64,000 nucleotides of DNA, from the NCBI RefSeq assembly GCF_000186865.1, contig NW_008705564.1, forward strand, positions 274,483 to 338,482, written 5' to 3'. Each line of letters begins with the position of its first letter. Within the stretch, counting starts at the first letter, position 1. The notes under the pieces were generated by a model. It had not been told where the DNA came from, ran no database searches, and saw nothing but the letters and a program-made list of their open reading frames with translations. Shown piece after piece: positions 7,101-60,702 of this stretch. This DNA comes from Aureococcus anophagefferens. Its lineage: Eukaryota > Sar > Pelagophyceae > Pelagomonadales > Pelagomonadaceae. A program made the translations under genes and the position numbers.

Positions 7101-8129
7101 TCGCGTTCCTCACCTGGCGCCTCGCGGACCTCGCGGCGCCGGACGACGCCGCGCCGGCGACGACGGCGAACCCCATGCGCGCGGACGTCGAGCTCGCGAG
7201 CGTGGCCCCGCGCGCGCCGGCGCCGCCGGCGGAGCCGCCGACGCCGCGACGCTCCTTCGACGCGGCCCTGGACGCGGGCCGGCGGTCGCTCTCGGCGACG
7301 CGCGCGACGCTCGGCCGCGCGAGCGAGACACTGCGGAAGGAGTGGCAGAAAATACCGGAGACGGGCATGCTCAGGTGGTCGCGGGCCGTGGGCTCGGCGC
7401 TCGTCGCGGCGGCGGCGGCCTTCCTGTCGCGGCGCTTCGCGGACGCGCGGCCGCCGGCGCGCGCGAGCCTCCACTACGACCAGACGCCCGAGGCTGTGTG
7501 GAAATCAAATCTTCAACCCGACTTCAATGTGAGTATATGCGACCGTTTTGACGCAAGCTCTTCGGCTGTGCTTCGAGAACTCGACGAGAGCAATCGATTC
7601 GTCCAAAAATCAGCCGAATCGACTTCGATTTGACCGAGCTAGAGAGGTTTGAAGTTTTTGCTGGACCGGGCGTTCCACTGGTTGATTTCCACGCAGGCCC
7701 GAGGACGTCGCCGCGCGCGTCTACCTGCGGCTGCTGGGCGTCAGCGACGCCGAGGCCCACATCGACCTGGGCGTCGTCGCGGCGGCGCGGCGGACGACGC
7801 TCGACTTCGACGGGTTCGCGCGCCACGTCCGCCGCCTCGGGCTCAGCGTGGGCCACTCGTTCTGGACGCCCGGCGACGTCCGCGACATGTGGGACTGCAT
7901 GGCCTTCGTCGCCGCCGGCGCCGACGGCGCCGACGGCCTCCCCTTCGACGACTTCGCGGCGCTCTACGAGACGCGGCTGAGCCTCGACGGCGCCGCCGCG
8001 CGGCCCGCGACGCCCACGGCCGCGTCGCTCCGCGCGTTCGTCGACGCCAGGCTCGCCCGCGCCGCGCCCGGGAAGGCCCACGACCGGGCCCTCAGCAAGA
8101 AGGCGCGCAAGAAGGCCGCCGTCGTCTAG
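4136..8129 (+). CDS. STRA6-like multi-pass membrane protein with EF-hand tail
   Basis: 1,264 aa in two exons, 4136-7497 and 7697-8129, joined across an introner. The first ~680 residues hold about nine hydrophobic segments, for example around residues 110-125, 155-170, 190-205, 220-250, 340-365, 470-490, 540-560, 580-600 and 630-650. The last is followed by DPGYNAFTSTVVLHETQCNPVLEEACRLLL, which resembles the conserved C-terminal N-P-V-L block of STRA6-type retinoid channels. The cytoplasmic tail has an EF-hand-like loop (DRSNTNLVDAGD, ~residue 823), Ala/Pro-rich linkers and a second helical domain after the intron. The start is the ATG in CAGCCATGGCC. STRA6 identity rests on topology and one motif; calcium sensing is inferred from one loop. 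Confidence 0.55.
7494..7696 (+). mobile_element. introner element A1 (203 bp), spliced intron 7498-7696
   Basis: AT-richer block inside the STRA6-like gene. TIRs are CTGTGTGGAAATCAA at the left and TTGATTTCCACGCAG at the right. The 8-bp TSD GCCCGAGG occurs at 7486-7493 and 7697-7704. The intron starts at GTGGAA (7498), four bases inside the element, and ends at CAG 7696. The splice reads T-P-E-A-V-P-E-D-V, so the insertion added A-V-P-E and kept the frame. Forward orientation (core TCCAAAAATCAGCC on the coding strand). Confidence 0.9.
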
Positions 8130-8306
8130 GGGCCGGCCGCCACTTTTAAAACTGCTGCTTAACTACAACATGCGTTGCATTTTTTTTTTCACCAAGCTCT
8201 GCGCCAGCGATGCGGCGCCTCTTACTGCTGCTTATTAACTTCAACAAGACATTCACCCTGCAGCGTGCAGTCTCGGTGCACGTGCAGGCTGCGCTCCGCG
8301 CCATCG

Positions 8307-9668: not shown

Positions 9669-9784
9669 TCTGGGGCGCTCGAGGTCAGGTGGCGAGGTCG
9701 TCGCTGTCCACTGATAATGTTGCAGTCAATAACTGCCGCTGAACTTCGACAACAGCGACATTTGTCGATTGAGTCGATATTGAG

Positions 9785-12700
9785 ATGATGATCTCCGCGC
9801 GAGGCTGCCTGAGCCTCGTCGCGGCCTGCCTCGCGGCGACGAGCCGCGCCACGGCGACTTTGGTCGCGTACTACTCCTTCGACGACGGCACGGCCGCCGA
9901 GGACAGCGACAGCAGCCTCGACGGCACCATCAGCGGCGCGTGGGCGTCGACGGGCCCCGACGGCAGCGGCGCGCTGTCCTTCGACGGCGGCGAGAGCTAC
10001 GTGCAGTTCCCGGACGCGCTGACGTCGGGCATCCTCGGGAGCAACGCGCGGACCGTGTGCCTCTGGGCGGCCATCTCGTCCTTCAACGACGCGGCGCTCT
10101 TCACGTTCGGAGACTACGCGGACGGCGAAGAGTTCGCGCTGATGACGGCGGCCAGCGCGGGAGAGTTCATCGTGCAGTTCTACGGGGGCGACTACGACAC
10201 CGACGTGTCAGTGAGCGAGTGGTCCGACGACGACGGCTGGCACCACTACTGCCTCGTCTACGACGGCGCGGACTGGTCGTTGTACGTCGACGGCGCGGTC
10301 GCTCACACGGCGACGGCATCGCTCAACACGGGCAGCGAGAACCCGCTCACGATCGGAGTGCGAGACAACGAATCGTACCTCGGCGGCTCCGTCGACGAGC
10401 TCTACGTCTACTCGAGCGCTCTGTCGGAGAGCGAGATCCAGACGCTCTACGTCGGGGACACGCTGATCGCACACTACTCCTTCGACGACGGCACGGCCGC
10501 CGAGGACAGCGACAGCAGCCTCGACGGGACGATCAGCGGCGCGACGGCGACGACGGGGCAGTACGGGATCGGCGGCGCGCTGTCCTTCGACGGGAGCGAC
10601 GACTACGTCGAGTTTCCTTCGGCCGTGACGGCGGACATCCTCGGGAGCGCCGCGCGCACCGTGTGCCTGTGGGCGGTGATCAACGCGTTCGACGGCGGCT
10701 CGCTCTTTTCCTACGGGTCGGAGAGCGACGGGCGACAGTTTACCCTCCGCCTGTTGTCGGACCCGGGAGCATTCCGGATGCAGTTCTTCTACGACGACAA
10801 CGACGTGACGTTGCCCGGGGTGGACACGGGCGAGTGGCACCACTACTGCCTCGCGTACGACGGCGCGACATGCGCGCTGTACGTCGACGGCGCCGAAGCC
10901 GAATCGAGTTCCTATTCCGTGACCGGGAATACCGGGTCCGAGTACCCGCTCACGCTGGGACTTCGCGGCGGCAACAATGGCTACTTTGACGGCTCCATCG
11001 ACGAGGTCTACGTCTACTCGAGCGCGCTCGACGCGGCCTCGATCCAGGTCCTCTACGACGCCGTCACCACTGCGCCGACGGTGACGCCGCTGCCGACGCA
11101 CGTGTCCCACTCCACGCTGATCGCGCACTACTCCTTCGACGACGGCACGGCCGCCGAGGACAGCGACAGCAGCCTCGACGGCACCATCAGCGGCGCGACG
11201 GCGACGACGGGGCAGTACGGGATCGGCGGCGCGCTGTCCTTCGACGGGAGCGACGACCACGTCGAGTTCCCGGACGCGGTGACGGCGGACATCCTCGGGA
11301 GCAGCGCGCGGACCGTGTGCTTGTGGGCGGTGATCGGCGCCTTCGACAAGGGGACGCTCTTCTCGTACGATTCGAACTCTGCCGGGCAACGGTTCAGCTC
11401 CCTGACGGGAACAACGACTGGCGAGATCTCTTTGTCCGGATGGGGCACTAGCTACGGGTTCGACGTCGCCGTGTCCGGGTCCGACGACGGCGACTGGCAC
11501 CACTACTGCCACACGTACGACGGAACGGACTGGCTGCTGTACTTCGACGGGACGCTGGCTCGCACGGAGACCGTGGCCCTGGACACCGGCTCCGACAACC
11601 CGCTGACGCTCGGAGTGCGCTACTCGGGAGGCTACACCGGCTACTTCTCCGGCTCCATCGACGAGGTCTACGTCTACTCGAGCGCGCTTGACGCGGCCTC
11701 GATCCAGGTCCTCTACGACGCCGTCACGGTCGCGCCGACGGTGACGCCGCTGCCGACGTCGAACTTCTTCCAGGCCACGCTGGTCGCGCACTACTCTTTC
11801 GACGACGGCACGGCCGCCGAGGACAGCGACGGCAGCCTCGACGGGACGATCAGCGGCGCGACGGCGACGACGGGCCGCGACGGGAGCGGCGCGCTGTCCT
11901 TCGACGGGAGCGACGACTACGTCGAGTTCCCGGACGCGGTGACGGTGGACATCCTCGGGAGCAGCGCGCGGAGCATCTGCTTATGGGCTGTCGTCGACGT
12001 TTGGGACGGGCAGGGCATGCTGTTCTCGTACGATTCGAATGTCGCATCGCAACGATTCAGCTTCATGGTTGAGTCCACAGCCGGGGAGTTCGGGCTACTC
12101 GGGTTCACGTCGGACTACGACTCCCGAAACATCGAAGCATCCGGCTCCGACGACGGCGACTGGCACCACTACTGCCTCACGTACGACGGAACGGACTGGC
12201 TGCTGTACTTCGACGGGACGCTGCTTCACACCGAGACCGTGGCCCTGGACACCGGCTCCGACAACCCGCTGACGCTCGGAGTGCGCTACACGGGAGGCTA
12301 CACCGGCTACTTCGACGGCTCCATCGACGAGGTCTACGTCTACGCGAGCGCGCTCGACGCGGCCTCGATCCAGGTCCTCTACGCCGCCGTCACCACCGCG
12401 CCGACGGTGACGCCGCTGCCGACGCACGTGTCCCACTCCACGCTGGTCGCGCACTACTCTTTCGACGACGGCACGGCCGCCGAGGACAGCGACAGCAGCC
12501 TCGACGGCACCATCAGCGGCGCGACGGCGACGACGGGGCAGTACGGGATCGGCGGCGCGCTGTCCTTCGACGGGAGCGACGACTACGTCGAGTTCCCGGA
12601 CGCGGTGACGGTGGACATCCTCGGGAGCAGCGCGCGCACGATCTGCCTCTGGGCAGTGATCGGCGCCTTCGACAAGGGGACGATCTTCTCGTACGATTCG

Positions 12701-37621: not shown

Positions 37622-39014
37622 ATGGCCACCTACACCGCGGAACGCAAGGCCGAGTTCGCGTCCCTCTCCCGGGGCGTGCCGTACGCGGAACAAGCCAAGC
37701 GCTTCCTGAACGTCTTCTGGACCCACAAGGACATCGACTTCGCGAAGAAGCCCGACGCCCGCGAGGCCGTGTGGAACTACACGAAGCAGTTCGTCGCGCT
37801 CGATACGACGAAGAAGGACTCCGGCACGGAGCTTGATGAATTTCAGGCGCACCGGCGCGGCGCGGCGTCCGACGGCCGCGGCGCGCGTTCGAAGTCTCCG
37901 CCGAAACCGTTTCGACGGACGCGGCGCGGTCGCGAGCGTTCGGCCGAAACCGTTCCGCAGATGATGACCTCCCCTTAGGTTCCTCGAGAAGGAGGTCAAG
38001 GCGATGACGATCAAGGACCTGCGCGTGCAGCTCGCGGAGATCGAGATCGACGACAACAACCGGATGTCGCTCCTCGAGTTCCTCGTGTTCCATTACGGCG
38101 GCGCGAGCTGGGACGCGCTCCTCGACTGGGAGCCGTCGGCGTCGCCGCGGGCCGTCGCGCGGCTCAAGGCCGCGGAGGAGGAGATGGCCAAGGCCCAGGC
38201 CGCGCTCGCGTCCGCGACCGAGGCCGCCGCGTCCGCGCAGGCGGCCGCGGCCGGCGCGGCCGGCGCGGCCGAGACCGCGGCGAAGGAGGCCGCGGCGTCC
38301 GAGGCCGCGGCGCGGGAGGCGCTCGTCGCCAAGGAGGCCCTCGAGGCCCAGGAGCGGGCCAAGGAGGACACGCTCAAGGACTGGGAGGCGAAGGCGGCCG
38401 ACGTCACGCTCTGTGTGGAAATCAACCACTGGTTTGGGGGGTCCCCACCAAACTTCAGAACGAAGTCGATTCGGCTGATTTTTGGACGAATCGATTGATC
38501 TCGTCAAGTTCTCGAAGCACGGCAGAAGAGCGTGCGTCGAAACCGTCGCATACGCTCACATTGAACTCGGGTTGAAGATTTGATTTCCACACAGGTCACG
38601 CTGTCGGCGATGAAGCAGGCGCGCGCCAAGGCCATGGTCTCCGTCTGCAAGAGCGAGGACTCGCAGCCCCTCCGCACCGCGCGCATCACGGCGGGCGCGA
38701 CGGCGCGCACGGCCGCCAAGGCCGCCAGGGCCGCGGAGACGTCGCGCGTCGCCGCCGTCGCGGCGATCGACGCCAAGGCCGCGGCCGCGGCCGCGGCGGC
38801 CGAGTCCCTCGAGGCCGCGGACGACGCCGTCGCGAGCCTCAGCGTCAAGATCGAGCAGGCGGCCGCCGACTGCGCGGGCAAGGGCGGCAGCGACGGCTCC
38901 CTCTGGTGGCTCGACCGCGAGTTCGACGAGGCGAAGAAGTACATGGGCCCGAAGCAGCTCGCCAAGGCCGAGAAGGCCCGCGCGGACGCGAAGCTCGCCG
39001 AGGAGGCGGCCTAG
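37622..39014 (+). CDS. 34-kDa actin-bundling protein (p34/abpB) homologue with Ala-rich coiled coil
   Basis: 362 aa in exons 37622-37854, 37979-38414 and 38595-39014 (exactly 363 codons with the stop). Residues 1-135 match the Dictyostelium 34-kDa Ca2+-regulated actin-bundling protein layout: PYAEQAKRFLNVFW, then LDEFQAHRFLEKEVKAMTIKDLR read across intron 1, then IEIDDNNRMSLLEFLVFHYG with an EF-hand-like D-D-N-N-R-M-S-L-L-E. The rest is a long Ala/Glu/Lys coiled coil. Intron 1 is best read with a GC donor at 37855 (124 bp); a GT donor at 37867 also keeps frame but inserts R-G-A-A before F-L-E-K. Intron 2 is an introner. Likely cytoplasmic, cross-linking F-actin. Tail convergent with TOP2 (139 bp between stops). 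Confidence 0.68.
38411..38594 (+). mobile_element. introner element A2 (184 bp), spliced intron 38415-38594
   Basis: TIRs CTGTGTGGAAATCAA and TTGATTTCCACACAG... (left CTGTGTGG, right CCACACAG, exactly complementary for 12+ bp except one position). TSD GTCACGCT at 38403-38410 and 38595-38602. Intron starts GTGGAA, ends CAG. Protein reads A-D-V-T-L-C-V-T-L-S-A: four residues added. Reverse orientation relative to the gene (coding strand reads GGCTGATTTTTGGACG). About 19 bp shorter than the other A elements because of an internal deletion after the G-T-T-T-G-G hairpin. Confidence 0.9.
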
Positions 39015-39153: not shown

Positions 39154-42100
39154 TCAGTCGTCCTCGTCGAACTCGGACTCGGAGTCCTCGCCGTCGTCCC
39201 AATCGTCCTCGTCGTCCTCGTCGTCGTCGCTGTCCGCGTAGACGACGGCCTTGCGCGCGCGCGCGGGCTTGGGCGTCTTCGCCTTGAGGGGCGCGGGCTC
39301 GTCGTCGTCGTCGTCGCTCGGCACGACGATGGGCTCGTCCTTCTTCGCGCCGGCCTTCTTCGCCTTCTTGACGACGAGGGGCGACGCCTTGACGGGCGAG
39401 AAGAAGTCGCCGTCGTCGTCGTCGTCGGGCTTCTTGGGCGCGCGCTTCTTGCTCGCGGCGGCCTTCTTGGGCGCGGCGGCCTTCTTGGGCGCGGCGGCCT
39501 TCTTGGGCGCGGCGGCGGCCTTCTTGGGCGCGGCGGCGGCCTTCTTGGGCGCCGGCGCCTTCTTCTTGGGCTTGGCGCCGAAGTCGTCGTCGTCGTCGTC
39601 GTCGCCGCCGAGGTCGAAGTCGTCGTCGCTCTCGACGGCGACGGGCTTCTTCTTCGGCGCGGCCTTCTTCTTCGCCGGCGCCTTCTTGGCCGGCGCGGGC
39701 TCCTCCTTGGACTCCTCGAAGGCGAACTCCGCGTCGCCCTCGGCCGCGTCGCCCATGACGACGTCCGCCGACGGCGNNNNNNNNNNNNNNNNNNNNNNNN
39801 NNNNNNNNNNNNNNNNNNNNNNNNNNCGAAGGCGTCGGACTCGTCGTCGTCGTCGTCCGAGTCGACGTAGACGGGCTTCTTCTTGGGCTTGGGCGCGGCC
39901 TTGGCCTTGGGCGCGGCCGCGGCGGCCTTGGCCTTGGCCTTGGGCGCGGGCGCGGCGGGCGCGGGCGCGGGCGCGGCGGGCGCGGGCGCGGGCGGCTTCG
40001 GCGCGGCCTTCTTCGGCGCGGCCTTCTTCTTGGGCTTGGCCTCGAAGTCGGAGTCGTCCTCGTCGGAGGAGAAGGCCATGGCGTCGGAGTCGTCGGAGTC
40101 GTAGGCCTGCTTCTTGCGCGCGTTCTTCTTTGGCTTCTTCGCCGGCTTCTTCTTCTGGCACGCCTTGGCCTTCTTCGCCGCGTCGGCCTCCTCCGCGTCG
40201 CGGGCGGCGTCGCGGTCGTCGAGCTCGGCCTCGAGGTCCGCGAGGTCGTCGAGCCAGATGGCCGTCTCGGGCTTGGCGACGAGCGCGACGAGCTCCGCGT
40301 CCTCGTCCTTGAGCTCGGCGCGGAGCGCGTCGACGCGCTCCATGGTCAGGCTCCAGATCTTCATGGACAGGAGGTAGTCGTAGCCCTTGGCGAGCTGGGC
40401 GTCCGAGCTGCCCGCCGCGGCGCCAGCGCCGTCGTCGTCGCCGTCGGAGCCCGACGCGTCGCCGTCGTCGTCGGCCTTCGCCGGCGTCTTCTTCTTCGCC
40501 GCGGCGTTATACACGGCGTCGTAGCCGTCGTCCACGAGCTGGGCCAGCAGCTCCGCGCGCTTGCGGTTCTGCACCACGAGGTCGCCGCTGAGCACGGAGA
40601 GGACGAAGCGCACCTTGTTGCGCAGCAGGCTCACGCGCGCGCGCTTCGCCTTGACGAGGTGCGCCTTCCGCTTCGCGTACGTCGCCACCCGCACCTTGTA
40701 GAAGGCCTTGATGACGTCGAAGGGCGCGTCGTACTTGTCGATGACCAGGCCCGTGTCGTCGAAGAAGTTCATGTTCGACGTCGCCAGGGACCCCTCGAGC
40801 TTGAACTTCTTCTCCAGACCGCCGAGCGCCGCCTCCGCGTCGTCCAAATCCTCGCCCTTGGTCACCGTCACCGTGAACGACACGCGCGTGTCCGTGTGGT
40901 TCTCCTTGAAGTCCTTGACCCAGGCCTTGGTCTTGTCGTCGCCGCTGAGCTGGACTTCGAGCCACTGCTTGTAGTCGTGCGTCCACTTGCGCACGGGCCT
41001 GGGCAGGACAAGAGTGCGAAATTCCCAACTTCAAAGGCTCCGATCTCGGCCATTTTCCACTCGTTTCGGCTGATTTTTGGACGAGCGATCATCTCTCGGA
41101 ACGGTCTCGAAGCGTGGATGCTTTTTCCGGAACGCGCGCGCGCGGAACACTCACGTTGAAGCGACGTTGAATCACCCTTGTCCTGCCCTGGCACGGGCAG
41201 CTCGTCGACGAGCACGGTGACGTCGTCGAGCCGCGTCGCGCGGCCGAGGACCGCGAAGGCGCCCGCGTTCTTGCCGCCCTTGGCCACGATGTCGCCGCCG
41301 AAGCCCCGGTAGTGGGGCGCGAGGTCCGCCGCGCCCACGTCCTCCGCGGCGCAGTCCGCGAGCGGGCCGACGTCGTCGTCGACGTCGTCGCCGACGGCGT
41401 CGATCATGCGCCGGAGCACGCCGATGAGCGCGCGCGGCGCGTAGTTGGGCACGGACGTCGCCCAGCCCGTGCCGATGCCGTCGGCGCCGTTGCAGAGCGC
41501 GAAGGGCAGGACGGGCACGTAGTACGTCGGCTCGATGGACTGGCCGTCGTCCTCGAGGTAGTCGAGGACGAAGTCGTCGTCCGGGTGGAAGACCTTGCGC
41601 GCGACGGCCTCGAGCTTCGTGAAGATGTAGCGCGAGCTCGCGGCGTCCTTGCCGCCCATGATGCGCGTGCCGAACTGGCCCGCGGGCGTCAGCAGGTTCA
41701 CGTTGTTCGAGCCCACAAAGTCCTGCGCCATGCCGACGATCGTGCCCGTGAGGCTCATCTCGCCGTGGTGGTAGGCCGCGTGCTCCGACACGTAGCCCGC
41801 GAGCTGGGCGACCTTGATCTCCTTCTTGAGCTTGCGCTTGAAGCAGGCGAAGAGCACCTTGCGCTGCGACGGCTTCAGCCCGTCGACGACGGACGGGATC
41901 GACCGCTGGTTGTCCGCGACGGAGAAGAGGATGAGCTCCTTGTTCACGAAGTCGCCGTAGGACATGGCGTCGACGGCGTAGTCGACGAAGGTCCCCGGCT
42001 CGAGGTTGCGCAGCCAGGTCTTGCGGTCCTCGACGCGCTTCTTCGAGAACGCCATGTCGATGAGGTCGCCCTCGCGCGCGGATTCGTCGAGCGTCGCGTA

Positions 42101-44102
42101 GTCGAGCTGGTGCGTGTCGAGCTCCCCGAAGTACTCCTTGGCCTCCTTGGCCGTCGACGTGCCCAGCCCCTTGTAGTACTTGATCGCGTGGCCGTGGAGG
42201 CCGCCGCGCGCCTCCTTCCAGGCCTCGTACTCGGGCAGCGTGAAGAAGACCTCCGCGGGCTTCGACTTCGCCGCCGGCGTCGCCTTGACGATGGGCGTGA
42301 TGAAGCAGCGCAGGAAGCCCGGGATCTGGAGCAGCGACGGCCAGAAGTGGTGGAGGCAGTTGATGAGCAGGCCCTTGATGTGGGACCCGTCGTGGTCCTG
42401 GTCCGTCATGATCATGAGGTGGCCGTAGCGGAGCGTCTTGAGGTTCGCCTCGTCGTAGGTCACGCCGAAGCGCAGGCCCAGGATCTTGACGACGTTCTGC
42501 ACCTCCTCGTTCTTCATGATCGCCGCGTGGCTCGCCTCGCGGACGTTGAGCGGCTTGCCCTTGAGCGGGAAGACGCCGTAGAGGTCGCGGCCGACGACGC
42601 CGAGGCCCGACACGGCGAGCGCCTTGGCGGAGTCGCCCTCCGTGAGGATGAGCGTGCAGTCCTTGCCGCGCGCGCCGCCCGCGGCGTTCGCGTCGTCCAA
42701 CTTCGTGATGCCCGTGAGCCGCGTCTTCTTCGAGCCGCCCTTGCGCTTGAGCTGCTCGTCCTGCTTGAACTTGGTCCAGGCGAGGACGCGGTCGACGACG
42801 CCGGACTTCTCGATGGCCTTGAGGAACTTGTCCGGCAGGACGCACTTGGAGCCGAAGGCCTTCTCCTTCGTCGTGAGCGTCTCCTTGGTCTGCGAGTCGA
42901 AGGCCGGGTTGACGATCATGGCGTCGACGTAGACGCAGAGGTGGGCCTTGATGAAGGCGGGCTTGACCTCCTGGCCCTTGTTCTTCTTCTTGACGGCCGC
43001 CGCGAGCTTGGCCGTGATCTGGTCCGCGACGTAGTTGACGTGGCTGCCGCCCTTGGACGTGCAGATGGAGTTGACGAAGGAGAGGTGCTGGAAGGTGCCG
43101 TCGGAGGGCGCGACGCCGACGGTCCAGCGGTCGTCGACCCGCTCGAGGGCCGCCGGGGGCTCGAGGCCGTCGTGGAGCGCGACGTACTGCGCGAACGACT
43201 TCACGGGCACGCGCTCGCCGTTGAGCTCGACCTTGAGGGACGAGCCGTGGCAGGACGCGGAGGCCGCGACGTCGTAGGCGCGCTTCGAGAGGAGCGCGAC
43301 GATGTCGTCGTCCAACCGGTCCATCTTGAAGCGCGCGAGGTCCGGCTCGAAGGTCACGCGCGTGAAGTCCTTCTTGTTCTTGTGCGGCGAGATCTTCGCG
43401 GGGCCCTGCGTGCCGGACATGTTGTGCTCCCAGGTCTGGGACAGCTTGCGGCCGGACTTGGAGTCCGCCGTCTCGACCGTGAACTTTTTCGAGAAGATGT
43501 TCGCGAGCTTGGCGCCGTAGCCGTTGCGGCCGCCCGTCGTCTTCTTCTCGTTGTCGTCGAAGTTCGACCCCGTGAGCAGGTGGCCGAAGATGAGCTCGGG
43601 CACGTAGCAGCCGTGCTCGCCGTGCATCTCCACGGGGATGCCCTTGCCGTCGTTGCCCACGGAGATGGAGTTGGCCGCCACGTCGATGTCGACCTTGATC
43701 GTCGTCATCGACGGGTCGCGCTGCTTGTTGTCGGCCGCGTTGACCATGATCTCGTCGAAGATCTTGAAGAGGCCGGGCACCTGGTTGGAGGGTCGCGTGG
43801 GCGCGTCGGTTTCCGATACGAGAGGGACGCCGCGGCGCGCGTAGGTCACGTTGCGCCGCACGATGCGCTTCGTGTCGGGGTTGAGCACCCACATCGGCTG
43901 CGTGCTCATCTCGATGGACCCGACTGCGCGCGCGGGGGGAGCCGCGTCGGGGACGTCGCGCGGTCTCGGGCGCCGCGGGCGCGCTGTAGGTGTCGGGGCG
44001 CAGCAGGATGTGCTCGAGCTGCGTCTTCTTCTGGTACGTCTCCTCGATGGTCTTCGACTTCTTGCCCGGCGCCTTCTTCGGCGCCGCGTTCGTCGTCTCC
44101 AT
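39154..44102 (-). CDS. TOP2: DNA topoisomerase II
   Basis: Three exons: 43985-44102, 41187-43923, and 39154-40998, which contains the N gap. About 1,560 aa. Order: ATPase (NAADNK, GNDGKGIPVEMH, GGRNGYGAKLANIFS), transducer with the K-loop region, TOPRIM (LTEGDSAKALA; DQDHDGSHIKGL with the metal-binding Asp triad), WHD with the catalytic Tyr in DAASSRYIFT, tower and C-gate, then a long Lys/Ala/Asp tail (KKAAPKK, DSDDDDD) for nuclear localisation and chromatin binding. Intron 1 (61 bp, 43924-43984) must use a GC donor: only then is the invariant R-P-D-T-Y-I-G-S block restored. Intron 2 is an introner restoring E-L-P-V-(P-G-P-V)-R-K-W-T. The frame differs across the gap, so the gap length is not 50. 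Divergent from adenylate kinase. Confidence 0.95.
39777..39826. other. assembly gap (50 N) in the TOP2 C-terminal tail
   Basis: Fifty Ns inside the Asp/Lys-rich coding tail. The reading frames on either side differ by a number not divisible by three, so the true gap is 50 plus or minus a non-multiple of three. Flanking DNA is simple GAC/AAG-type repeat, a likely cause of the break. Confidence 0.98.
40999..41190 (-). mobile_element. introner element B1 (192 bp), spliced intron 41186-40999
   Basis: In the TOP2 gene sense it begins CAGGGCAGGACAAGGGTG and ends CACTCTTGTCCTGCCCAG. TSD (gene sense) GCCCGTGC at 41198-41191 and 40998-40991. Fitting the TOP2 frame needs a cut after CAGG, i.e. a GC donor (GCAGGA), and acceptor CAG. 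The restored protein is E-L-P-V-P-G-P-V-R-K-W-T, four residues more than the family E-L-P-V-x-x-W-T. Forward orientation relative to the gene. Confidence 0.88.
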
Positions 44103-44829
44103 CTGCGGCGCGGGTCGGGCTCGGGCTCGGGCGGGCGCGCGCGGGGCTTTGGGAGTGGGTGTGGCTGGTCAACGCGCGCAGGGGCGCCCCGGCGGGCGGC
44201 GAGGCGCCTCGGAACGTTTCGCGCGCTCGGCGCTCGCGAATCCGCGGGCCCGCGCCGCGCAGCAGCGCGTTTTTTCCGGCGCGCGCGTGCGAGGGCGTCG
44301 TGCGCGTGTTCGCGTGGACGCTGCGGTGTGCGAGAGCGGCCATGGTCTTCGAGCTCCTCGCGTGCCGGGGACTCGACGACGCGCAGAGCTACACCTCGGC
44401 AGGCGCTCGAGTGCCAAATTGCAACCGTGTTTTTTTTGTTGAACTAAAATTTGCCGTATCGAAGAGCTGCTCGACGAGGACAAAGACGCGGACAAACGAT
44501 GACAGAAGAGAGGTCGACGAGCCTCGCGAGGGCAGGCGGCGACGTCGCAAATCAGGTCTGGGTCTCGAGCGCGCGCCGCGCGGCCAAGGACGACGACGAG
44601 GTCCGCGGAGCCGACGACGCGTCGATCCACAACACGCCCGTACTGCGCAACGACCCTCACCCGTCCGCACGCGTGTTCGACGCCGACGCCGCAGTCCCGC
44701 CGCAGCAGCCAATCGCGTCGGTCGCCGAGGCCAGCGATGCCGTCGATCCAGCTCGAGCCCTCCACGTCTCGAAGCAATCGCGAGTCGCGTCGCGTCGCAC
44801 CGCTCCGCCCACCGCACCCACACGCAAGC
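44103..44829. other. 727-bp intergenic region between divergent TOP2 and adenylate kinase genes
   Basis: Holds the 5' flanks of both genes. Around 44425-44475 there is an AT-rich island (T8 tract at 44431-44438, then GAACTAAAATTTG), the only strong drop in GC here and a candidate core promoter. Frames crossing the region are Arg/Ala-rich and not convincing genes. Part of 44500-44829 probably is the adenylate kinase 5' leader. Confidence 0.5.
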
Positions 44830-49803: not shown

Positions 49804-49832
49804 CGCTGCGCTGACCTGCTGTGGCAAGAGGC

Positions 49833-51291
49833 ATGGGCGCCTCGCGCACGACGCAGCGACGCCTGCGCCCGCGGACGGTGGCCTGCGGCGTCGCGAGCAT
49901 TCTCGTCGTCGCCTACGTCGCTTTGGTCAGCGACCTGTCGCCGCCGCGCGTCGACCGGAGCGCGCCGGCGCGCGACCTGGGCCGCTGCCCCGCGGCGCGG
50001 CCCGCGAACCTGCAGCGGCGCGGCGTCGTCGTCGCCGGCGGGCGGCCCGTGCTCGCCGGCGACCCCTGCGCCGCCGCCGTCGACGCCGTCGACGCGGGCT
50101 ACTGCTTCGGCGAGCGGCGGCTCCGCTGCCTGCCGTCGTTCGTCGTCGCGGGAGCGCAAAAGGCCGCGACGGGCTGGCTCCGCCAGTGGCTCGCGCGGCA
50201 CCCGCAGCTCGCCCAGGGCGGCGGCAAGGAGGTGCACTACTTCGACAAGCTCGGCGCCGGCGAGCTCGAGGCGACCTGGCGCGGGCGGTACCTCGACGAG
50301 TTCCGCACCGACGACCTGAGCACGTACGCGTACGAGAAGACGCCCGACTACCTGCCCAACGCGACGGCCATGGCGTCGCTGCGCCGTTTACTGCCGTCGG
50401 TCAGGCTCGTCTTCATGCTGCGGGCGCCGACGGGCCGCGCCTACAGCGCCTACCAGCACCACTGCCGCAAGGGCCGGTTCTTCCGACCCGCGGACGCGGG
50501 CGCGCCGCTCCTCTCTTTGGAAGCGACGGCGGCGCAGCTCGACGGTGCGACACCACTACAAGCGCCCTGCGCGCCGGACGACTTCCACGCCTTCGTCGTC
50601 GCCGGCTCGGACGGCGGCGCGGCCGTCGGGACGAACGGCGCGAGCCGCGTGCTCTCCTGGGGCCTCTACCTGTGTGGAAATCAAATCTTCAACCCGACTT
50701 CAATGTGCGCATATGCGACCGTTTCGACGCAAGCTCTTCGGCTGGGCTTCGAGAACTCGACGAGAGCGATCGATCCGTCCAAAAATCAGCCGAATCGACT
50801 TCGATTTGATCGAGATAGAGAGGTTTGAAGTTTTTGCTGGACAGGGCGTTCCACTGGTTGATGTCCACGCAGGCCTCTACGCGGAGCAGCTCGCCGTCGT
50901 GCGGAACCTGGGCTTCGCGGACGACCAGCTGCTCGTCATCCTCTCGGAGACGGCCATGAAGCAGACGACGAAGACGCTCGACTTCGTCGTCGCGTGGCTA
51001 GGTTTGGAACCGTTCGACTTTTCCGCGCTCGCGACGTTCGAGGACGCGCTGGGCATGGAGCGGCTCCGCGAGCCGGGGTTGTTCGGCTACTTCAAGGACC
51101 TGTACGCGCGGCACAACTACCTCATGGTGCGGCGCCACGCGGCCGAGCCCCTCGCGCCGGAGACGACGGCGCTGCTGGACGCGTGGTACGCGCCCGCGAA
51201 CGCGCGGCTCGAGGCGCTCCTCGCGGCGTCGGACGCCGCCGTCTACCCGCGCGCGGAGGGGGGGCGCCTCCTCCCGCCGAACTGGTCCTAA
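49833..51291 (+). CDS. Golgi carbohydrate sulfotransferase (heparan sulfate NST/3-OST type)
   Basis: 419 aa in exons 49833-50673 and 50873-51291 (420 codons). Type II membrane topology: TVACGVASILVVAYVALVS is the signal anchor. PAPS sites are clear: FVVAGAQKAATGWLRQWL (5'-phosphosulfate loop) and VRLVFMLRAPTGRAYSAYQHH (3'-phosphate region). KEVHYFDK and YEKTPDYL follow the family order (catalytic Glu; K-T-P-x-Y). SWGLYAEQLAVV, broken by an introner, is the G-x-Y-x-x-x-L block. It transfers sulfate from PAPS to a polysaccharide; the polymer is unknown. Its stop overlaps that of the methyltransferase gene. Confidence 0.8.
50670..50872 (+). mobile_element. introner element A3 (203 bp), spliced intron 50674-50872
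   Basis: TIRs CTGTGTGGAAATCAA and TTGATGTCCACGCAG. TSD GCCTCTAC at 50662-50669 and 50873-50880. Donor GTGGAA, acceptor CAG. Protein reads W-G-L-Y-L-C-L-Y-A-E-Q-L, i.e. L-C-L-Y added to W-G-L-Y-A-E-Q-L. Forward orientation; very similar to A1 along its length (A1 and A3 differ at scattered bases). Confidence 0.9.
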
Positions 51292-53234: not shown

Positions 53235-53280
53235 ACGGCAACACATTAAGATTGAAGCCTTGTTTACCAAGAGAGAGACG

Positions 53281-53886
53281 ATGATGACGAGGTCGATCCT
53301 CCTTACGATGGCGTTCCTGCGCCTCGACGCCTTCGCGCCGCCGTCACTGCGGCGGCGGGTCGCACCGCGAGCACAAACCGCGGACGACGAGAGCGAGGAC
53401 GAGCTCCTCGAGCGCATCATCGCCGAGGGCAGCGCGCGCAAGGCCCTCGAGGGCTCCCGGCCCGTCGACGCGGCCGCGCCGCCGCCGAAGCACCGGGACC
53501 CCGTGGCGAACTCGGGCGCGCTGACGGACCGCTTCGTCATGGCCGCGCGCGCGCTGCGCGGCGAGTACGACCCGGCCGAGGCGGCCGCGGACACGGAGGA
53601 GGAGTCGAAGCTGCTGGGAGCGCTCGTCGACGCGTACCCCGCGCCCTACTCCTTCACGGCCGTCGGCAAGCCGAAAACGCCCGGCGACTACCGCGACCTC
53701 GCCGACGGCCTCGTGCGCACCGTGTCCGCGGCCTGCGACGGCGCGTTCGTCGAGTACGCGGTCACGCCGCGCCTCGGCGGGAAATTCGCGTCCGTGAAGC
53801 TCGACACGACGGTGCTGAGCCCCGAGATGGTCGCCGCCGTCGTCGCCGCGCTCAAGGCCGACGACCGCGTGACCATGGCGTTTTAA
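53281..53886 (+). CDS. plastid-targeted DUF493 (YbeD-like) protein
   Basis: 201 aa from ATG 53281. MMTRSILLTMAFLRLDAFAPPSLRRR is a signal peptide with a textbook D-A-F-A-P-P plastid cleavage motif. An acidic linker follows, then the ferredoxin-like DUF493 domain at the C-terminus: YPAPYSFTAVGKPKTPGDYRDLADGLV, VEYAVTPRLGGKFASVKLDTTVLSPEMVAAVVAALKADDRVTMAF, matching YbeD order (Y-P-x-x-x-x-x-K-V-x-G; S-x-x-G-K-Y-x-S-x-T; L-x-x-x-x-x-V-x-M-x-L). Bacterial YbeD links to lipoylation/secretion; plastid role unknown. Confidence 0.75.
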   Translation: MMTRSILLTMAFLRLDAFAPPSLRRRVAPRAQTADDESEDELLERIIAEGSARKALEGSRPVDAAAPPPKHRDPVANSGALTDRFVMAARALRGEYDPAEAAADTEEESKLLGALVDAYPAPYSFTAVGKPKTPGDYRDLADGLVRTVSAACDGAFVEYAVTPRLGGKFASVKLDTTVLSPEMVAAVVAALKADDRVTMAF

Positions 53887-53928
53887 CACCCGCGGGTGTG
53901 GCGTCGCGGGGGAACGCGCGGCGGCGGC

Positions 53929-55060
53929 CTACCGGCCGGCGAGGGGCGACGCGGACCGGGTCACGAGGGGCCGCTCCGACGTCACGGTCCGGTGGACCTC
54001 GACGAGGCCCGGCACGGACGCGCCGTACGTGGAGCGGCCGACGGCCTCGGCCTCCGCGCGCGTCCGGGGCAGGCGGCCGCAGTCGAGGACGCGGACCGGC
54101 GCGGCGACCTGTGCCGAATTCAACCACTGGTTTGGGTGGTCCTGACCAAACTTGAGAATTCTCTAGCTCGGTCAAATCGAAGTCGATTCGGCTGATTTTT
54201 GGACGGATCGATCGCTCTCGTCGAGTTCTCGAAGCCCAGCCGAAGAGCTTGTGTCAACACATTCGAATACGCTCACATTGAAGTCGGGTTGAAGATTTGG
54301 TTTCGGCACAGGCGGCGACGCGGCCCGTCCGCGAGCCCGCGGCCTCGACGGCCCTGACCGCGTCGAAGCCGTCGACGACGCAGCCGAAGACGACGTGCTT
54401 GCCGTCGAGGTGGGGCGTCGCCCGGAGCGTGACGAAGAACTGGCTGCTGTTCGTGTCCGGGCCCCGGTTCGCCATCGACAGCGTCCCCGCGCCCGCGTGG
54501 CGCAGGTCGAAGTTCTCGTCGGGGAACGTGCCGCCGTAGATGGACGTGCCGCCCGTGCCGTCGCCGCGCGTGAAGTCGCCGCCCTGGATCATGAACTTGG
54601 GGATGACGCGGTGGAACTTGGAGTTGCGGTAGCCCAGCACCGCGTTCGAGGACCCGCACAATTCCGCAAAGTTCTCGGCCGTCCGCGGCGCGACGGACCC
54701 GTAGAGGCCGAAGACGACGCGCCGCGGCGGGGCGTCGCCGACGGCCACGTCCATGAAGACGCGCTCCGTGACGTCCGCCTGCGGCGGCGCGGCGTCGAGA
54801 GCCTCCGGCTCGTCGGCCGCGAGCGGCGCGGGCAGCAGCCCGTTGGCGACGAGCAGCGCGTAGCCGCCGCCGACGACGCCGACGTAGGCGCCGAGGCGCG
54901 CGAGCTTCGTCGCCGTCGACGCCTCGGGCGACGGCGCGGGCGGCGGCGCGACGGGCTCCGGCCGCGCGCCCGGCGGCGCCTTGGACTTGGACGCGAAGCT
55001 CCGCCGCGGCGCGCGCGCCGCGGCGCGGCTCGCGCAGCGGGCGGCAGCGCAGGCGAGCAT
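53929..55060 (-). CDS. organelle cyclophilin (peptidyl-prolyl isomerase)
   Basis: 310 aa in exons 54308-55060 and 53929-54108. [27 protein letters not shown] is a mitochondrial-type presequence; a TM helix ([21 protein letters not shown]) suggests anchoring. The cyclophilin domain has [15 protein letters not shown] (catalytic Arg), [34 protein letters not shown] and LDGKHVVFG, all active-site residues kept (W121 position is His, as in many eukaryotic paralogues). After the introner the family end ([11 protein letters not shown]) resumes, then ~45 extra residues of unknown role. The C-terminus lies 42 bp from the DUF493 stop. Confidence 0.88.
54109..54311 (-). mobile_element. introner element A4 (203 bp, variant termini), spliced intron 54307-54109
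   Basis: In gene sense it begins CTGTGCCGAAACCAAATC and ends GGTTGAATTCGGCACAG. Both ends changed together from the TGTGG of A1-A3 to TGCCG. TSD (gene sense) GTCGCCGC at 54319-54312 and 54108-54101. The same cut after CTGT now gives a GC donor (GCCGAA). Cyclophilin reads G-R-V-A-A-C-V-A-A-P-V-R: four residues added. Forward orientation. Confidence 0.88.
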
Positions 55061-55371
55061 GGGTGCTGCTGCTGCTGGGTGCTGCTCTGCTGCTGCTGCT
55101 GGGTGCTGCGGGCACGGCTGCACACGGCCAGCAGAACGCGACGGCTGGTCTTCGACCTCGAAGAGATCGTAAGCAGTTTCAATGGCAGCGCACATGCTCG
55201 CAAAACCTTGGCGATGTCAACCAAATCCGGTGCAGGTGTTTTTGCATGTAGGTCGGGGCGAGAGGATGGATGCGCAGCCCGAAAATCGACGATGAGCGCG
55301 CTCTCCGGGACGCTCGGCTCGGCGACCGTCGCGCGCTGATCGTCGCCGGACCGTAACCCGCAGCAACACCG
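55061..55371. other. 311-bp intergenic region between divergent cyclophilin and ABCC genes
   Basis: Contains a CTG-rich microsatellite (CTGCTGCTG, GGGTGCTGCTC) at 55064-55110 next to the cyclophilin start, then a less GC-rich stretch (55180-55260) which may hold the promoter of one or both genes. Nothing else recognised. Confidence 0.5.
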
Positions 55372-58300
55372 ATGAGCGCCGCCGGCAGCCCCGCGGGCAG
55401 CCCCAGGCAGCAAAACAATTCAAACACCGGCGGCAGCCCCGCGGGCAGCCCGCGGCAGCCGAGCAGCCCCATGGAGACCAAGTGGGAGAAGGCGCGCGCC
55501 GACTCGCCGGAGCTCTTCAAGCGGTCGCTGAGCCTCGAGGAGGCGGCGCAGCGCACGGCGAGCCCCTGGGACGAGGCGTCGGGCCTCGCGCGGCTGAGCT
55601 TCTGGTTCGTGCGGCCCCTGCTCTGCGCGTGGAGCCGGCGGGAGCCGTCGGCCGACGACCTGCCGAGCGTGCCCTGCCGCGACGAGCCGGCGGTCGTCGC
55701 CAAGCGCGTCGCGCGCGCCTGGCGCCGCGAGGTCGCGCGCGCGCGGAAGCGCCGCGAGGACCGGTCGCGCGCGGCGCACGCCAGGGCAGGAAAAGGGTGA
55801 TTCAACGTCGCTTCAACGTGAGTGTCCCGCGCGCGCACGTTTCGGAAACAGCACCCACGCTTCGAGAGCGCTCCGAGAGATGATCGCTCGTCCAAAAATC
55901 AGCCAAAACGAGCGGAAAACGACCGAGATAGGAGCCTTTGAAGTTGGGAATTTCGCACCCTTTTCCTGCCCAGGCGCACGCGGGCGCGGACGAGAACCGG
56001 CCCGAGGAGGACGCGAGCCTGCTGCGGGCGCTCGGCGCGTGCTTCGCGCCGGAGCTCGCGGACCTGGGCTGGTGGATGGCCCTCGAGTACGGCTGCCTCT
56101 TCGCCCAGGCCGCGCTCGGGGCGGCACGAGAGAGCGACGTTCCCGACGTCAAAGGCTCCGATCTCGGCCACGTTCCACTCGTTTCGGCTGATTTTTGGAC
56201 GAGCGATCATCTCTCGGAACGGTCTCGAAGCGTGGATGTTTTCTTTCGTAACGCGCGCGCGCGGAACACTCACGTTGAAGCGACGTTGAATCACTCTTGT
56301 GCTGTGCCCAGGCCGCGCTCGTCGGTCCGCTCGTCGAGTGGCTCGCGCGGACGCACCGGCCGACCTACGAGGGCGTCGTCCTGGGCGCGGCGCTCGCGCT
56401 CACGTCCCTCCTCCAGGGCGTGAGCCACCACGCCGCCTTCTACGTGGGCATGCGCGGCGGCTGGAACGCGCGCATGGGCGTCGTCCGCCGCGCGGAAATC
56501 AACCGCCGGTTCGGGACGTCCCGACCAAACTTTGAAATGCTCTAGCTCGGTCAAATCGAAGTCGATTCGGCTGATTCTTGGACGAATCGATTGCTTTTGT
56601 CGATTTCTCGAAGCACAGTTGAAGAGGCTGGTCCGAACCGTTCGATTACGCGCACATTGAAGTCGGGTTGAAGATTTCATTTCCACGCAGGTCATCCGCG
56701 TGCTCCACGACAAGCTCCTGAAGGCGTCGTCGGCCGAGGTGCGACGCCTGGGCGCGGGCTACGTCGTCTCGCTCGTCGCGTCGGACGTCATGCGCTTCGA
56801 CGCCGTGTCGACGTTCCTGTGGGCGCCGGTGTTGAGCGTCGTCGCCGTCGCCGCCGTCGTCGCCATGGTCGCGGCGGCCGTCGGGCCGCTCGCCGCGATC
56901 GCGGGGTGTTTCGTCGTGTTGGCGAGCGTCGCCGTGCAGATCCGCCTCGGCGGCGAGCTCAAGCACGTGCGGAAGCGCGCGGCGGCGCGCACGGACGCGC
57001 GCGTGCGCCTCGTCAACGAGCTCCTGGGCGGCGTCGTCGCCGTGAAGGCGAGCTGCTGGGAGCGGCCCTTCGCCAGGGTCGTCGGCGGGCTGCGGAAGCT
57101 CGAGGCCGTCGAGATCTACGCGTCGCAGCGGTTGAAGGCCGTGAACAGCGCCCTCTTCTTCTCGACGACGGCGCTCGCGGGCCTCGCGACCTTTGGGGTC
57201 TACGTGTTCGGGCCGAACGTCGGACGAGACGAAGGCCTCACCGTCGGCGCGGCGTCGACGGTCGTCGCCTCGTTGGCCGTGCTGCGCCTCATCGTCGGCA
57301 AGCACCTCGCGCGCTTCACATCGTTAGCCCCCGAGGCCTACGTGGCCGTGCGGCGCATGGAGGCCTTCCTCAAGTGCCGCGTCGTCGTGCACAAGAGCGG
57401 GTGGCGCCGCGGCGGCTTCGCGCTCGCGGAGACGGGCGACCGGCGCAAGCCCTGGGGCGAGGTCGACCGGCGGAAGCGCGGCGAGGGCGACTTCAGCGAC
57501 GAGATCAACATCCTCGTGCACCTGGACCACGCGGCCTTCGTGCGGCCGTCGGAGGCCGCGCGCGCGGAGCACTCGAAGATCGCGGCGACGATCGAGAACC
57601 GGACGCGGTCGCGGCGCGACACGGACGACGACCTCGAGATGCTCGAGGCGGAGCTCGAGCACGAGCGGCTCCGGGAGACGCAGAACCTCTACTGGACGCC
57701 CGAGAGCGCCGCGGTGTCGAACCTGACGCTCGACGTGCGCCGCTTCGAGGTGTTGATGCTCTCCGGGCCCGTGGGCTGCGGCAAGAGCTCGTTCCTCGAA
57801 GCGCTGCTCGGCGAGCTCGACCTCGTCCACGGCACGGCCACGGCGAAGGCCGGCGCGCTCGTCGCCTACGCGCCCCAGACGCCGACGATCCTCGCCGCGA
57901 CGCTCCGCGAGAACGTGCTCTTCGGCGAGCGCTTCGAGGAGCGGGCCTACGTCGACGCGCTGCGCGCGGCGGACCTCGAGCTCGACGTGGACCAGCTGCC
58001 CCGCGGCGACCAGACCCTGCTGGGCGAGCGCGGCGTCAACCTGAGCGGCGGGCAGATGGCGCGCGTGAACTTGGCGCGCGCGGTCTACGTCGCGCGCTTC
58101 GCGTGTTTCCACATGAAGAACGCCTACGGCCAGCCGCCGCCCGTCGTCGTCTTGCTCGACGACGTGTTAGCCGCCGTCGACGCCAGGGTGCAGCGCACGC
58201 TCGTCGCGAACTTGAAGGGGCTCGCGGTCGAGTGCGGTTGCGGCGTCGTCCTCGCGACGCACCAGAAGCAGCTCCTGGGGTCCGCGGACCGCGTCGTCTA

Positions 58301-60702
58301 CCTGAACGCCAACGGCCGGAGCCCCGACGCCCACGAGCTCTACGTCGGGTCCCAGGACCACTACCCCGAGGCGTCGCGCCGCGCGTCGGAGGCGCAGGCG
58401 CTCGAGGACGCGCTCGTGCTCGCGCGGGGCACGTACACGTGCAGCGGCGTCGCCTGCGGCCCCGACGGCCGCGTCGCGCTGGACGGCGACGCGCTGGAGC
58501 AGATCTCCTGCGGGTCCGGGCCCGGCGCGCTCCGCGACTACGACGACCTCGCGCAGGTCGCGTGCGTGGGGCAGCTGAGCCCGGCGTCCGCGTACCGGAC
58601 CATCCGCGACGTCAAGATCGAGATCGTCACGGACGTCGGCCTCACGGACGCCCTCGAGGAGGCCGGCGACGACGACGGCAGCGTCGACAGCCACGCGTCG
58701 AAGCACGAGGCGTCCGATTTGGTCGTCGCCGAGGACCAGCGGGCGGGCCGCGTGCGGACGTCGACGTGGCGCGTCTACGCGGGCGCCGCGGGCGCGCCGG
58801 CCGTCGCGGGCGTCGCGGTGCTCTTCGTCGTCGCCCAGGTCGCCCTCATGGCCGCGGACTACGCCGTGCTGCGCTGGGCCGAGGCGGACCGCGACGACCA
58901 GCGGGAGACGACGCACGTCGCGTCCTACGGCGCCGCGACGGCGGTGGTCGTGACGGCGTCCCTGGTCGGGGCCGTGGCCTTCTTCCGCAGCACGTCGCGC
59001 GCGTCGACGCGGCTCCACGACGGCGCGCTGCAGGGCAGCAAAAGAGAGCGAAATTCCCAACTTCAAAGGCTCCTTTCTCGGCCGTTTTCCACTCGTTTTG
59101 GCTGATTTTTGGACGAGCGATCGTCTCTCGGAACGGTCTCGAAGCGTGGATGCTTTTTCCGGAACGCGCGCGCGCGGAACACTCACGTCGAAGCGACGTT
59201 TAATCTCTCTTTTGCTGCCCAGGCGCGCTGGCCGCGCTCTTCGACGCGCCGCTCTGGTTCTTCCACGCGAACCCCGTCGGCCGCATCCTGAACCGCTTCT
59301 CCGCGGACGTCGCGCAGGTCGACGAGCAGCTCGCCGTCGCTCTTTTCGACTTCGCGCAGTACGGGCTCATGATGGTCGGCGCGGTCGCGGCCGCGGTCGC
59401 CGCGGCGCCGTTCGTCCTCGCGGTCGCGCCCGCGGTCTACCTCGCGTTCCGGGCCGTCAAGGCGGAGGTCGTCACGTCGATGACGGTGCTGAAGCGCCTG
59501 GACGGCGTGTGCAAGTCGCCCGTGTTCTCCGCGTTCTCCGGGACGCTGCACGGGCTCGTGACGACCAGGGCCTACCCGCACGCGGGCAAGCGCGCCGCGG
59601 AGGAGCTCGACGCGGCGCTGGCGACGTCGGCGCGGGCCTGGTACTGGTGGCTCATCTGCAACCGCTACCTGGGCTTCCACCTCGACTTCCTCTGCTCCCT
59701 GTTCCTCGCCGCGGTCGTGGTGTTGGCCGTGCTCCTGCGGCGGTCCGTCGCGCCGGAGCTTTTGGCGCTCGCGCTGCTCTACGGCGTCCAGCTCAGCGGC
59801 AACTTCCAGTACATGATCCGCCAGCACGCCCTCGCCGAGACCTACATGACGTCCGTGGAGCGCCTGGCCCACTACCGCGACGGCCTCGACAGCGAGGTCC
59901 GCGACGGGCCGCGGTCGTTCAACGACGACGACGACGACCCCTGGCCGCGGACGGGCGCCGTCGTCTTCGAGAACGTGTCCTGCCGCTACCGCCACGACCT
60001 GCCCCTCGTGCTGTCCCAGGTGAACGTCCGGCTCGACGCGGGCTCCAAGGTCGGGGTGGTGGGGCGCACGGGCAGCGGCAAGAGCTCGTTCCTGCTCGCG
60101 ATCCCGCGGCTCAACGAGGTCTCGGAGGGCCGCGTGCTCGTCGACGGCGTCGACGCGGCGTCCGTGCCCCTCCACGTGCTCCGGCGGGCCATGGCCATCA
60201 TCCCCCAGGAGCCGACGCTCTTCAGCGGGACGACGCGCTTCAACCTCGACCCGTTCGACGAGGCGTCCGAGGACGCGTGCTACGCGGCGCTGCGCAAGGC
60301 GCGGCTGCTGACGGCGAAGCACGACCCCCTCGACGTGCTCCGGCGGCCCGTGGGCGAGGGCGGCGGCGACTGGTCCGTGGGCGAGCGCCAGCTCCTCTGC
60401 CTCGCGCGCGCGCTCCTCCTCAAGCGGCGCATCGTGTCCATCGACGAGGCGACGGCGAACGTGGATTTGGACACGGACCGCGTCATCCAGACGACGCTCA
60501 AGACGGCCTTCCCGGGGTCCACGGTCATCGTCGTCGCGCACCGCCTCCAGACGGTCCAGGACTCAGACGTGCTGCTCGTCCATCCTCGTGTCCCGCGGTT
60601 TTTGTCGGGGCCTGTATCGCCACGCCCGCGCCCTCGCAGGTCTTCGACCAAGGCCGTCTTATCGAGACGGGCCGGCCCGACCGTTTGCGGAAGCTTCAAT
60701 AA
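55372..60702 (+). CDS. ABCC/MRP-type full ABC transporter
   Basis: 1,500 aa from six exons: 55372-55785, 55974-56120, 56312-56491, 56691-59034, 59223-60577, 60640-60702; lengths sum to exactly 1,501 codons. N-terminal Ser/Pro/Gln region; TMD1 across exons 2-4; NBD1 with Walker A GPVGCGKSS (~607), signature NLSGGQMARVNLARA (~697) and Walker B VVLLDDV (~733); linker; TMD2 (FFHANPVGRILNRFSADVAQVDEQL is the family block after TM7); NBD2 with GRTGSGKSS (~1309), signature WSVGERQLLCLARALL (~1412, degenerate as in ABCC), Walker B IVSIDEAT (~1431) with catalytic Glu. NBD1 has Asp instead of Glu after Walker B, an ABCC trait. Exports glutathione conjugates or organic anions, probably vacuolar/plasma membrane. 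Four introns are introners; the last (60578-60639, GTCCAT...CAG) is ordinary. Confidence 0.92.
55782..55973 (+). mobile_element. introner element B2 (192 bp), spliced intron 55786-55973
   Basis: Begins CAGGGCAGGAAAAGGGTG and ends CACCCTTTTCCTGCCCAG: a near-perfect 17-bp TIR. TSD GCGCACGC at 55774-55781 and 55974-55981. Donor GC (GCAGGA) after CAGG; reading past it hits an in-frame TGA at 55798, so a downstream GT donor is excluded. Protein R-A-A-H-A-R-A-H-A-G-A. Forward orientation. Confidence 0.9.
56117..56311 (+). mobile_element. introner element B3 (195 bp), spliced intron 56121-56311
   Basis: TSD GCCGCGCT at 56109-56116 and 56312-56319. Ends are CGGGGCGGCACGAGAGAG and CACTCTTGTGCTGTGCCCAG; the inverted repeat is imperfect. 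Donor GC (GCGGCA) after CGGG, acceptor CAG. Protein A-Q-A-A-L-G-A-A-L-V-G. Reverse orientation. The exon between B2 and B3 is 147 bp. Confidence 0.87.
56488..56690 (+). mobile_element. introner element A5 (203 bp), spliced intron 56492-56690
   Basis: Ends are CCGCGCGGAAATCAACC and CATTTCCACGCAG. TSD GTCGTCCG at 56480-56487 versus GTCATCCG at 56691-56698 (one mismatch, so probably the oldest copy here). Donor GC (GCGGAA) after CCGC, acceptor CAG. Protein G-V-V-R-R-V-I-R-V-L-H. Reverse orientation. Confidence 0.85.
59031..59222 (+). mobile_element. introner element B4 (192 bp), spliced intron 59035-59222
   Basis: Begins CAGGGCAGCAAAAGAGAG and ends CTCTCTTTTGCTGCCCAG: TIR complementary over 18 bp except one position. 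TSD GCGCGCTG at 59023-59030 and 59223-59230. Donor GC (GCAGCA) after CAGG. Protein D-G-A-L-Q-G-A-L-A-A-L-F-D. Reverse orientation. Confidence 0.9.

Follow-up and report, generated by a model that had tools for sequence, protein, structure and literature searches.

The nine short elements that interrupt six genes within a 64,000-nucleotide stretch of the Aureococcus anophagefferens genome (contig NW_008705564.1, positions 274,483 to 338,482; hereafter the window, in whose own numbering positions are given) are almost certainly introners, that is, introns derived from non-autonomous DNA transposons. They fall into two related families which duplicate 8 bp of the target and which appear to bring a 3' splice site of their own while taking the 5' splice site from the target. 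The original prediction, made from the sequence alone, had already described these elements as introners, and this identity is supported by their target duplications and inverted ends, by the agreement of strand and reading frame, by gapless protein junctions and by relatives lacking the elements. What that account missed was the source of the 5' splice site, which is the GC or GT that opens the duplicated target. At the level of sequence, the anatomy of the elements, this GC/GT rule, the strand and frame agreement and the relatives without an element can be regarded as demonstrated.

According to the mechanism that we propose, an introner would insert into a gene duplicating 8 bp of its target. 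One end of the element would supply the 3' splice site (CAG), and the dinucleotide that opens the duplicated target (GC or GT), which does not belong to the element, would become the 5' splice site. The spliceosome would then remove one target copy together with the element, restoring the original message. A transposase encoded elsewhere would move the introners, and selection would leave practically only the copies that can be spliced.

A search of the window for inverted ends paired with 8-bp direct repeats recovered all nine predicted element starts, with lengths of 184 to 203 bp; as anticipated, the target duplications were perfect in eight elements and carried one mismatch in the ninth, 56488. 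Elements 7494, 38411, 50670, 54109 and 56488 belong to family A, and 40999, 55782, 56117 and 59031 to family B. The predicted introns, each made of one target copy plus the element, span 192-211 bp, and those of the larger sample described below measure mostly 200 and 211 bp. The first family A intron (7486..7696, + strand) comprises the target copy GCCCGAGG at 7486-7493, with a GC donor, and the 203-bp element at 7494-7696, which closes with the acceptor CAG and is followed by the second target copy at 7697-7704. Intron 2 (38403..38594, +) starts with the target copy GTCACGCT at 38403-38410, with a GT donor, and continues with a 184-bp element (38411-38594) whose core lies on the - strand; as a reading on the - strand would begin with AG, only the + direction fits the GC/GT rule. 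Intron 4 (50662..50872, +) has the target copy GCCTCTAC, a GC donor and a 203-bp element at 50670-50872. Intron 5 (54109..54319, -), with the target copy GTCGCCGC at 54319-54312, a GT donor and a 203-bp element at 54311-54109, satisfies the rule both ways, and the cyclophilin that it interrupts is coded on the - strand. The last intron of this family, intron 8 (56480..56690, +), joins the target copy GTCGTCCG, with a GT donor, to a 203-bp element at 56488-56690 with its core on the - strand; its second target copy reads GTCATCCG, hence the mismatch.

The four family B introns all have GC donors. Intron 3 (40999..41198, -) is formed by the target copy GCCCGTGC at 41198-41191 and a 192-bp element at 41190-40999. 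The other three are on the + strand: intron 6 (55774..55973), with the target copy GCGCACGC and a 192-bp element at 55782-55973; intron 7 (56109..56311), with the target copy GCCGCGCT and a 195-bp element at 56117-56311 whose ends are irregular, the terminal inverted repeats matching at 7/15 positions; and intron 9 (59023..59222), with the target copy GCGCGCTG and a 192-bp element at 59031-59222 that has its core on the - strand.

Allowing up to 3 mismatches, the window holds nine matches, eight of them exact, to a 16-bp core shared by the elements, which the original prediction had singled out; shuffled sequences lead one to expect 0.29 matches. Genome-wide (49.05 Mb, 86 contigs) the exact core occurs 2504 times and its reversed control not once; the family A end gave 859 exact occurrences (control, 0). 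The density of introners in the window had also been remarked on. With eight exact cores and a genome average of 3.3 per 64 kb (P ~0.02), it is only mildly above that average.

The splicing rule was examined in 78 bounded copies taken from the window, from 195 kb of contig C1 (190 kb plus 5 kb) and from 60 short loci of C1, each with an exact core at its centre. Their cores were allowed at most two mismatches, so that the sample covers copies with a well-preserved core, strongly decayed or core-less copies lying outside it; bounding imposed no particular second end base or donor. The target duplications were perfect in 66 of the 78, and 77 combined a GC or GT opening the target copy with an AG that closes the predicted intron when read the same way. 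Coding potential was scored by codon usage trained on seven long reading frames of the window, 77 copies being scorable, and 69 of these had confidently coding flanks. For sixty-two of the coding copies a single direction satisfies the rule, and in every one of them (62/62) it is that of the coding strand; the remaining seven satisfy it both ways and hence agree automatically. Once the element was removed, the best frames of the two flanks agreed in 71/77 copies. A GC or GT was present at the used side in 69/69 coding copies and at the other side in 22/69, against a background of 8283 GC or GT starts among 41331 coding-strand flank positions (20%). The same dependence is seen across the genome, where GC or GT comes directly after 1471 of the 1501 exact acceptor ends of family B (the reversed control has 7 matches). 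Among the donors, GT was found in 31 of 76 target copies, compared with 22% of the words starting with GC or GT in the same flanks (P = 2e-4).

The two families differ in how the direction of the intron is set. Nearest-neighbour identity had a median of 0.92 in family A and 0.97 in family B (39 copies each). The ends of family A are of the CTGTG kind, and both usually begin with CTG, which implies that CAG closes the element in either orientation; splicing is predicted along the core in 14 copies, against it in 17 and both ways in 8. In family B one end is usually CAGGG and the other CTGGG, and the direction is along the core in 13 copies, against it in 25 and neither in one. When the used end was assigned by the coding strand alone, it was CTG (read as CAG) in all 69 coding copies. 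In family A the used end was CTG in 33/33 and the unused end in 24/33 (P = 0.002), and this decay resembles a trace left by post-insertion selection for splicing. Family B had CTG at the used end in 36/36; its unused end was CAG in 31, CGG in 5 and CTG in none of the 36.

When the outermost eight columns of each end were left out, the resulting tree required four changes of the family B direction label (4-5 over bootstrap trees), compared with 11.0 for shuffled labels, and none of 500 shuffles was as low. The sequences thus compared suggest that direction in family B is a subfamily trait, switched a few times through one end base; the number of switches is rough, as support is weak over most of the tree and the well-supported branches alone require one change. 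The direction label of family A changed eight times on its tree, a count made without a shuffled control.

As to the host genes, the six that had been proposed were found, one of them holding four elements and the other five one each. The removal of each element as an exact intron, also part of the original prediction, holds if the predicted intron is taken as the element plus one copy of the duplication, the other copy staying in the exon; a reading frame rich in G and C at third codon positions (high GC3) carries on across all nine junctions when the pieces are removed in this way. Element 40999 lies in a DNA topoisomerase II gene on the - strand (39827..44443, approximate limits). Its stop-to-stop frame extends to 37491 through a gap of 50 N at 39777-39826, and past this gap, on the 3' side of the gene, it no longer resembles the same protein. 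The cyclophilin (peptidyl-prolyl isomerase) gene containing 54109 (53932..55216, -) forms a 358-codon stop-to-stop frame with the introner removed, and the gene with four elements encodes an ABCC-type transporter (55357..60730, +; 1520 codons stop to stop with the four introners removed), of which intron 6 is the first. The exon pieces between three adjacent elements of this gene measure 143 and 176 bp, lengths compatible with insertion between nucleosomes and saying no more than that. Comparison with solved proteins, which covers three junctions, revealed gapless alignments at each of them: with topoisomerase 2-beta at 40999, DELPVRKWTHDYK, with ABCC4 at 59031 and with a solved cyclophilin at 54109. 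The remaining hosts are an RBP_receptor-like protein on the + strand (7494), an alanine-rich protein with a weak F_actin_bund_C match (38411) and a sulfotransferase-like gene whose Pfam match is barely above the cut-off (50670).

Further evidence came from nine public proteins aligned to the translations of the window. Near-identical proteins cross three of the nine sites (54109, 55782 and 59031) without the element. P0126 (97% identical) does so at 54109, and P0130 and P0133 lack the element there too; the last 14 residues of P0140, a cyclophilin named as Aureococcus anophagefferens, match 14/14 into the element, 12 of them lying inside, which implies that the named species carries the element at that site. 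P0002 (98% identical) crosses 59031. P0122 (99% over 149 residues) and P0123 (97% over 182) cross 55782 and continue into the translation of the neighbouring element 56117; their source looks like genomic DNA in which 55782 is empty and 56117 filled, an incompletely spliced transcript being possible. The distant orthologues P0124 and P0125 (~50% identical), compared as sequences, continue without interruption where 56117 and 56488 would lie, the elements being absent; introns shared at the same positions with distant species, which would have spoken against introners, were not seen at these two sites. On the scale of the class the insertions are thus young, and at least some sites appear to differ in filling among close relatives. 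The empty sites expected in related strains are in this way supported at the protein level at 54109, 55782 and 59031, with the origin of the contigs, DNA or transcript, ambiguous.

Some observations weigh against identifying the elements as spliced introners. The sample excludes eighteen further core matches for which no bounds could be set; they include some with worn target copies, some at locus edges and chance matches. A strong coding signal was absent around 8 of the 77 scorable copies, and one copy was unscorable. Of the 78 bounded copies, only that at L053 (C1:858600-859600) lacks a donor that could be used; the frames on its two sides disagree, and both flanks have their best coding signal on the strand opposite to its acceptor. 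Splicing at the nine sites is itself predicted. In addition, P0002, P0126, P0130 and P0133 have no adjacent element marking their contigs as DNA, and the contigs of P0002 and P0126 could be transcripts, in which case they would be evidence of splicing and not of empty sites.

Could the same pattern have arisen by spread as RNA, with spliced introns being reverse-spliced into transcripts and copied back? Reverse splicing of introners has been proposed for fungi in the part of PMC9860276 consulted. In its favour, nearly all copies are competent introns (77/78 in the sample, 1471/1501 genome-wide), though only 1987 of 3000 random positions in the 190-kb stretch, which was chosen regardless of elements, look coding and 1013 do not; more unspliceable copies would be expected of a DNA transposon to which splicing made no difference. 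Such a route does not predict 8-bp duplications (66/78 perfect), inverted ends or the use of both orientations in both families, and we regard it as very improbable. Even less credible are unspliced miniature transposons sitting in damaged genes, an idea that draws on splicing being predicted from sequence and on L053 fitting no direction, and that is opposed by the coding-strand agreement of all one-way copies together with the GC/GT rule, by a loss of CTG confined to the unused end, and by topoisomerase II and cyclophilin genes that are intact and conserved with the element removed.

Within the introner explanation, selection alone may not explain the pattern, and insertion itself might be tied to splicing. 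The argument is that about one third of positions do not look coding and should need no donor, yet only 30 of the 1501 family B ends lack GC or GT; some of these 30 may be chance matches, seven having been found in the reversed control. We consider this addition unlikely, and it would take one of two forms: either the machinery sees GC or GT beside one particular end, or it acts only on DNA that is transcribed and splice-competent. The two family B ends differ chiefly by one base, and the acceptor end swaps sides between subfamilies. A P-type transposase is one candidate for such splicing-linked insertion.

With regard to the enzyme that moves the introners, the window was predicted to contain no transposase gene, and no transposase domain was detected in the 28 window frames scanned, which are part of its frames. 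The genome was searched for the hAT (two models), KDZ, Mutator and P families, others such as Merlin lying outside the search. Neither hAT model (PF05699, PF14372) had a match, the control genomes being silent too; KDZ (PF18758) had none, with a silent control; and Mutator (PF10551) had none, with a positive control in 3/14. The P-element type was the sole one found, at three places. A decayed copy on C25 has an RNaseH_N match above the curated cut-off and served to locate two identical frames of 563 codons, C2:3448188-3449876 (-) and C11:1393826-1395514 (+), in which RNaseH_N, GTP-binding and RNaseH_C matches follow in order, weak and all below the Pfam cut-offs. These two frames sit in matching segments of at least 3.4 kb that are 99.94% identical, the C11 copy ~1.9 kb from the contig end, and the pair may be a segmental duplication.

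Two enzymes were weighed, and we give them equal weight, each being a tentative possibility. A hAT transposase, suggested by the original prediction, is consistent with the 8-bp duplications and with the CAGGG-type end of family B. In the hAT consensus both ends are of the CAGGG kind, and hAT target duplications carry A at position 7; in our copies family A ends in CTGTG, and A occupies position 7 in only 13 of 76 target duplications. The absence of hAT matches in the genome counts against this enzyme and for the alternative, to the extent that searches with silent controls can. This part of the prediction is accordingly unsettled.

The alternative, a P-element-type (TNP/THAP9-like) transposase, might be the driver given the two identical 563-aa frames and the decayed C25 copy. 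P elements produce 8-bp target duplications (PMC7776569), and a distant homologue of the P type has already been published for A. anophagefferens (PMC3985635), as far as the consulted parts of these papers go. Against it, the searches covered part of the superfamilies with 8-bp duplications, the identical frames may reflect segmental duplication, and no introner-like end pair was found around the C11 copy in the 6.2 kb read, with the contig end nearby. One CAGGGCAG octamer lies upstream of this copy; CAGGGCAG and CTGGGCAG together occur nine times in the window, introner ends included. Nor does the core within the decayed C25 copy help this candidate. We discarded the C25 locus as a parent element, as the transposase frame continues on both sides of the introner-like stretch, and a more fitting reading is that of a decayed transposase gene into which an introner inserted.

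This C25 locus (L097, 1063-2840) has other peculiarities. Its GC-rich 5' part (409 codons) contains seven in-frame TAG and neither TAA nor TGA, and TGA, TAA and TAG are all present in its AT-rich 3' part. The diverged introner that interrupts it at ~2285-2455 has an exact core and different ends and may represent an older third family. Two further candidates were rejected: a long autonomous partner of family A on C1 (L017), with ends 745 bp apart, proved to be two separate introners, and carriage by viruses was discarded because the core pattern found in eight viral contigs lacked introner sequence in the 100 flanking bases on each side, pointing to chance matches.

The mechanism proposed for the nine sites is already known. 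That introners are established, as the original prediction held, is confirmed by the report of this mechanism for A. anophagefferens by Huff, Zilberman and Roy (2016, Nature 538:533), here taken from passages of the papers citing it (PMC9860276, PMC9481584, PMC10228655, PMC7789003 and PMC9612004). According to these, one splice site is carried and the other co-opted, introners occur in both orientations, and they insert between nucleosomes with a characteristic length near 210 bp. Our elements resemble them in species, inverted ends, target duplications, the one carried and one co-opted site and the use of both orientations, their predicted introns measuring 192-211 bp. Family 4 of Aureococcus sp. 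(Gozashti et al. 2022, PMC9860276) shares the genus and the 8-bp duplication; as described in the sections consulted, it carries both splice sites and lengthens the message by 12 nt, whereas the window elements co-opt one site and would leave the length unchanged. The introners of Symbiodinium microadriaticum (Fig. 2B of the same paper, likewise seen in part) also carry the 3' site and take the 5' site from the target duplication, which is 4 bp long in that case and 8 bp in ours. P-element/THAP9 transposons (PMC7776569, in the part consulted) share the 8-bp duplication, and a P-type transposase is present in this genome; the window introners, unlike them, encode no transposase, and the likeness seen is that of the duplication length.

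Some details may be added by our work: that many family A copies could be spliced either way, that family B switches direction through one end base, and that the P type alone was found among the transposase families searched. We recognised no report of a P-type driver or of these end details in the literature searched, most subscription journals being outside the search. Introners are a leading answer to the bulk origin of new introns, and this genome offers a very clean case, in which a one-base difference between ends accompanies the direction of the intron, decay affects the unused end and spares the used one, and the set of filled sites seems to vary among close relatives. The puzzle is why there is practically no copy where splicing is impossible, and which transposase moves the introners; with several public genomes of one species, both questions are testable.

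Regarding other features, the window has a GC content of 70.5%. At the gathering thresholds Rfam gave no match in the window, and no tRNA was found there. A 1440-codon frame at 9785-14104 (+) contains six laminin-G-like (PF13385) stretches. Tandem arrays occupy 14408-14734, one of them (14408-14648) built on a 60-bp unit with 97% matches, and lie within a reading frame that has a PT disordered-repeat match.

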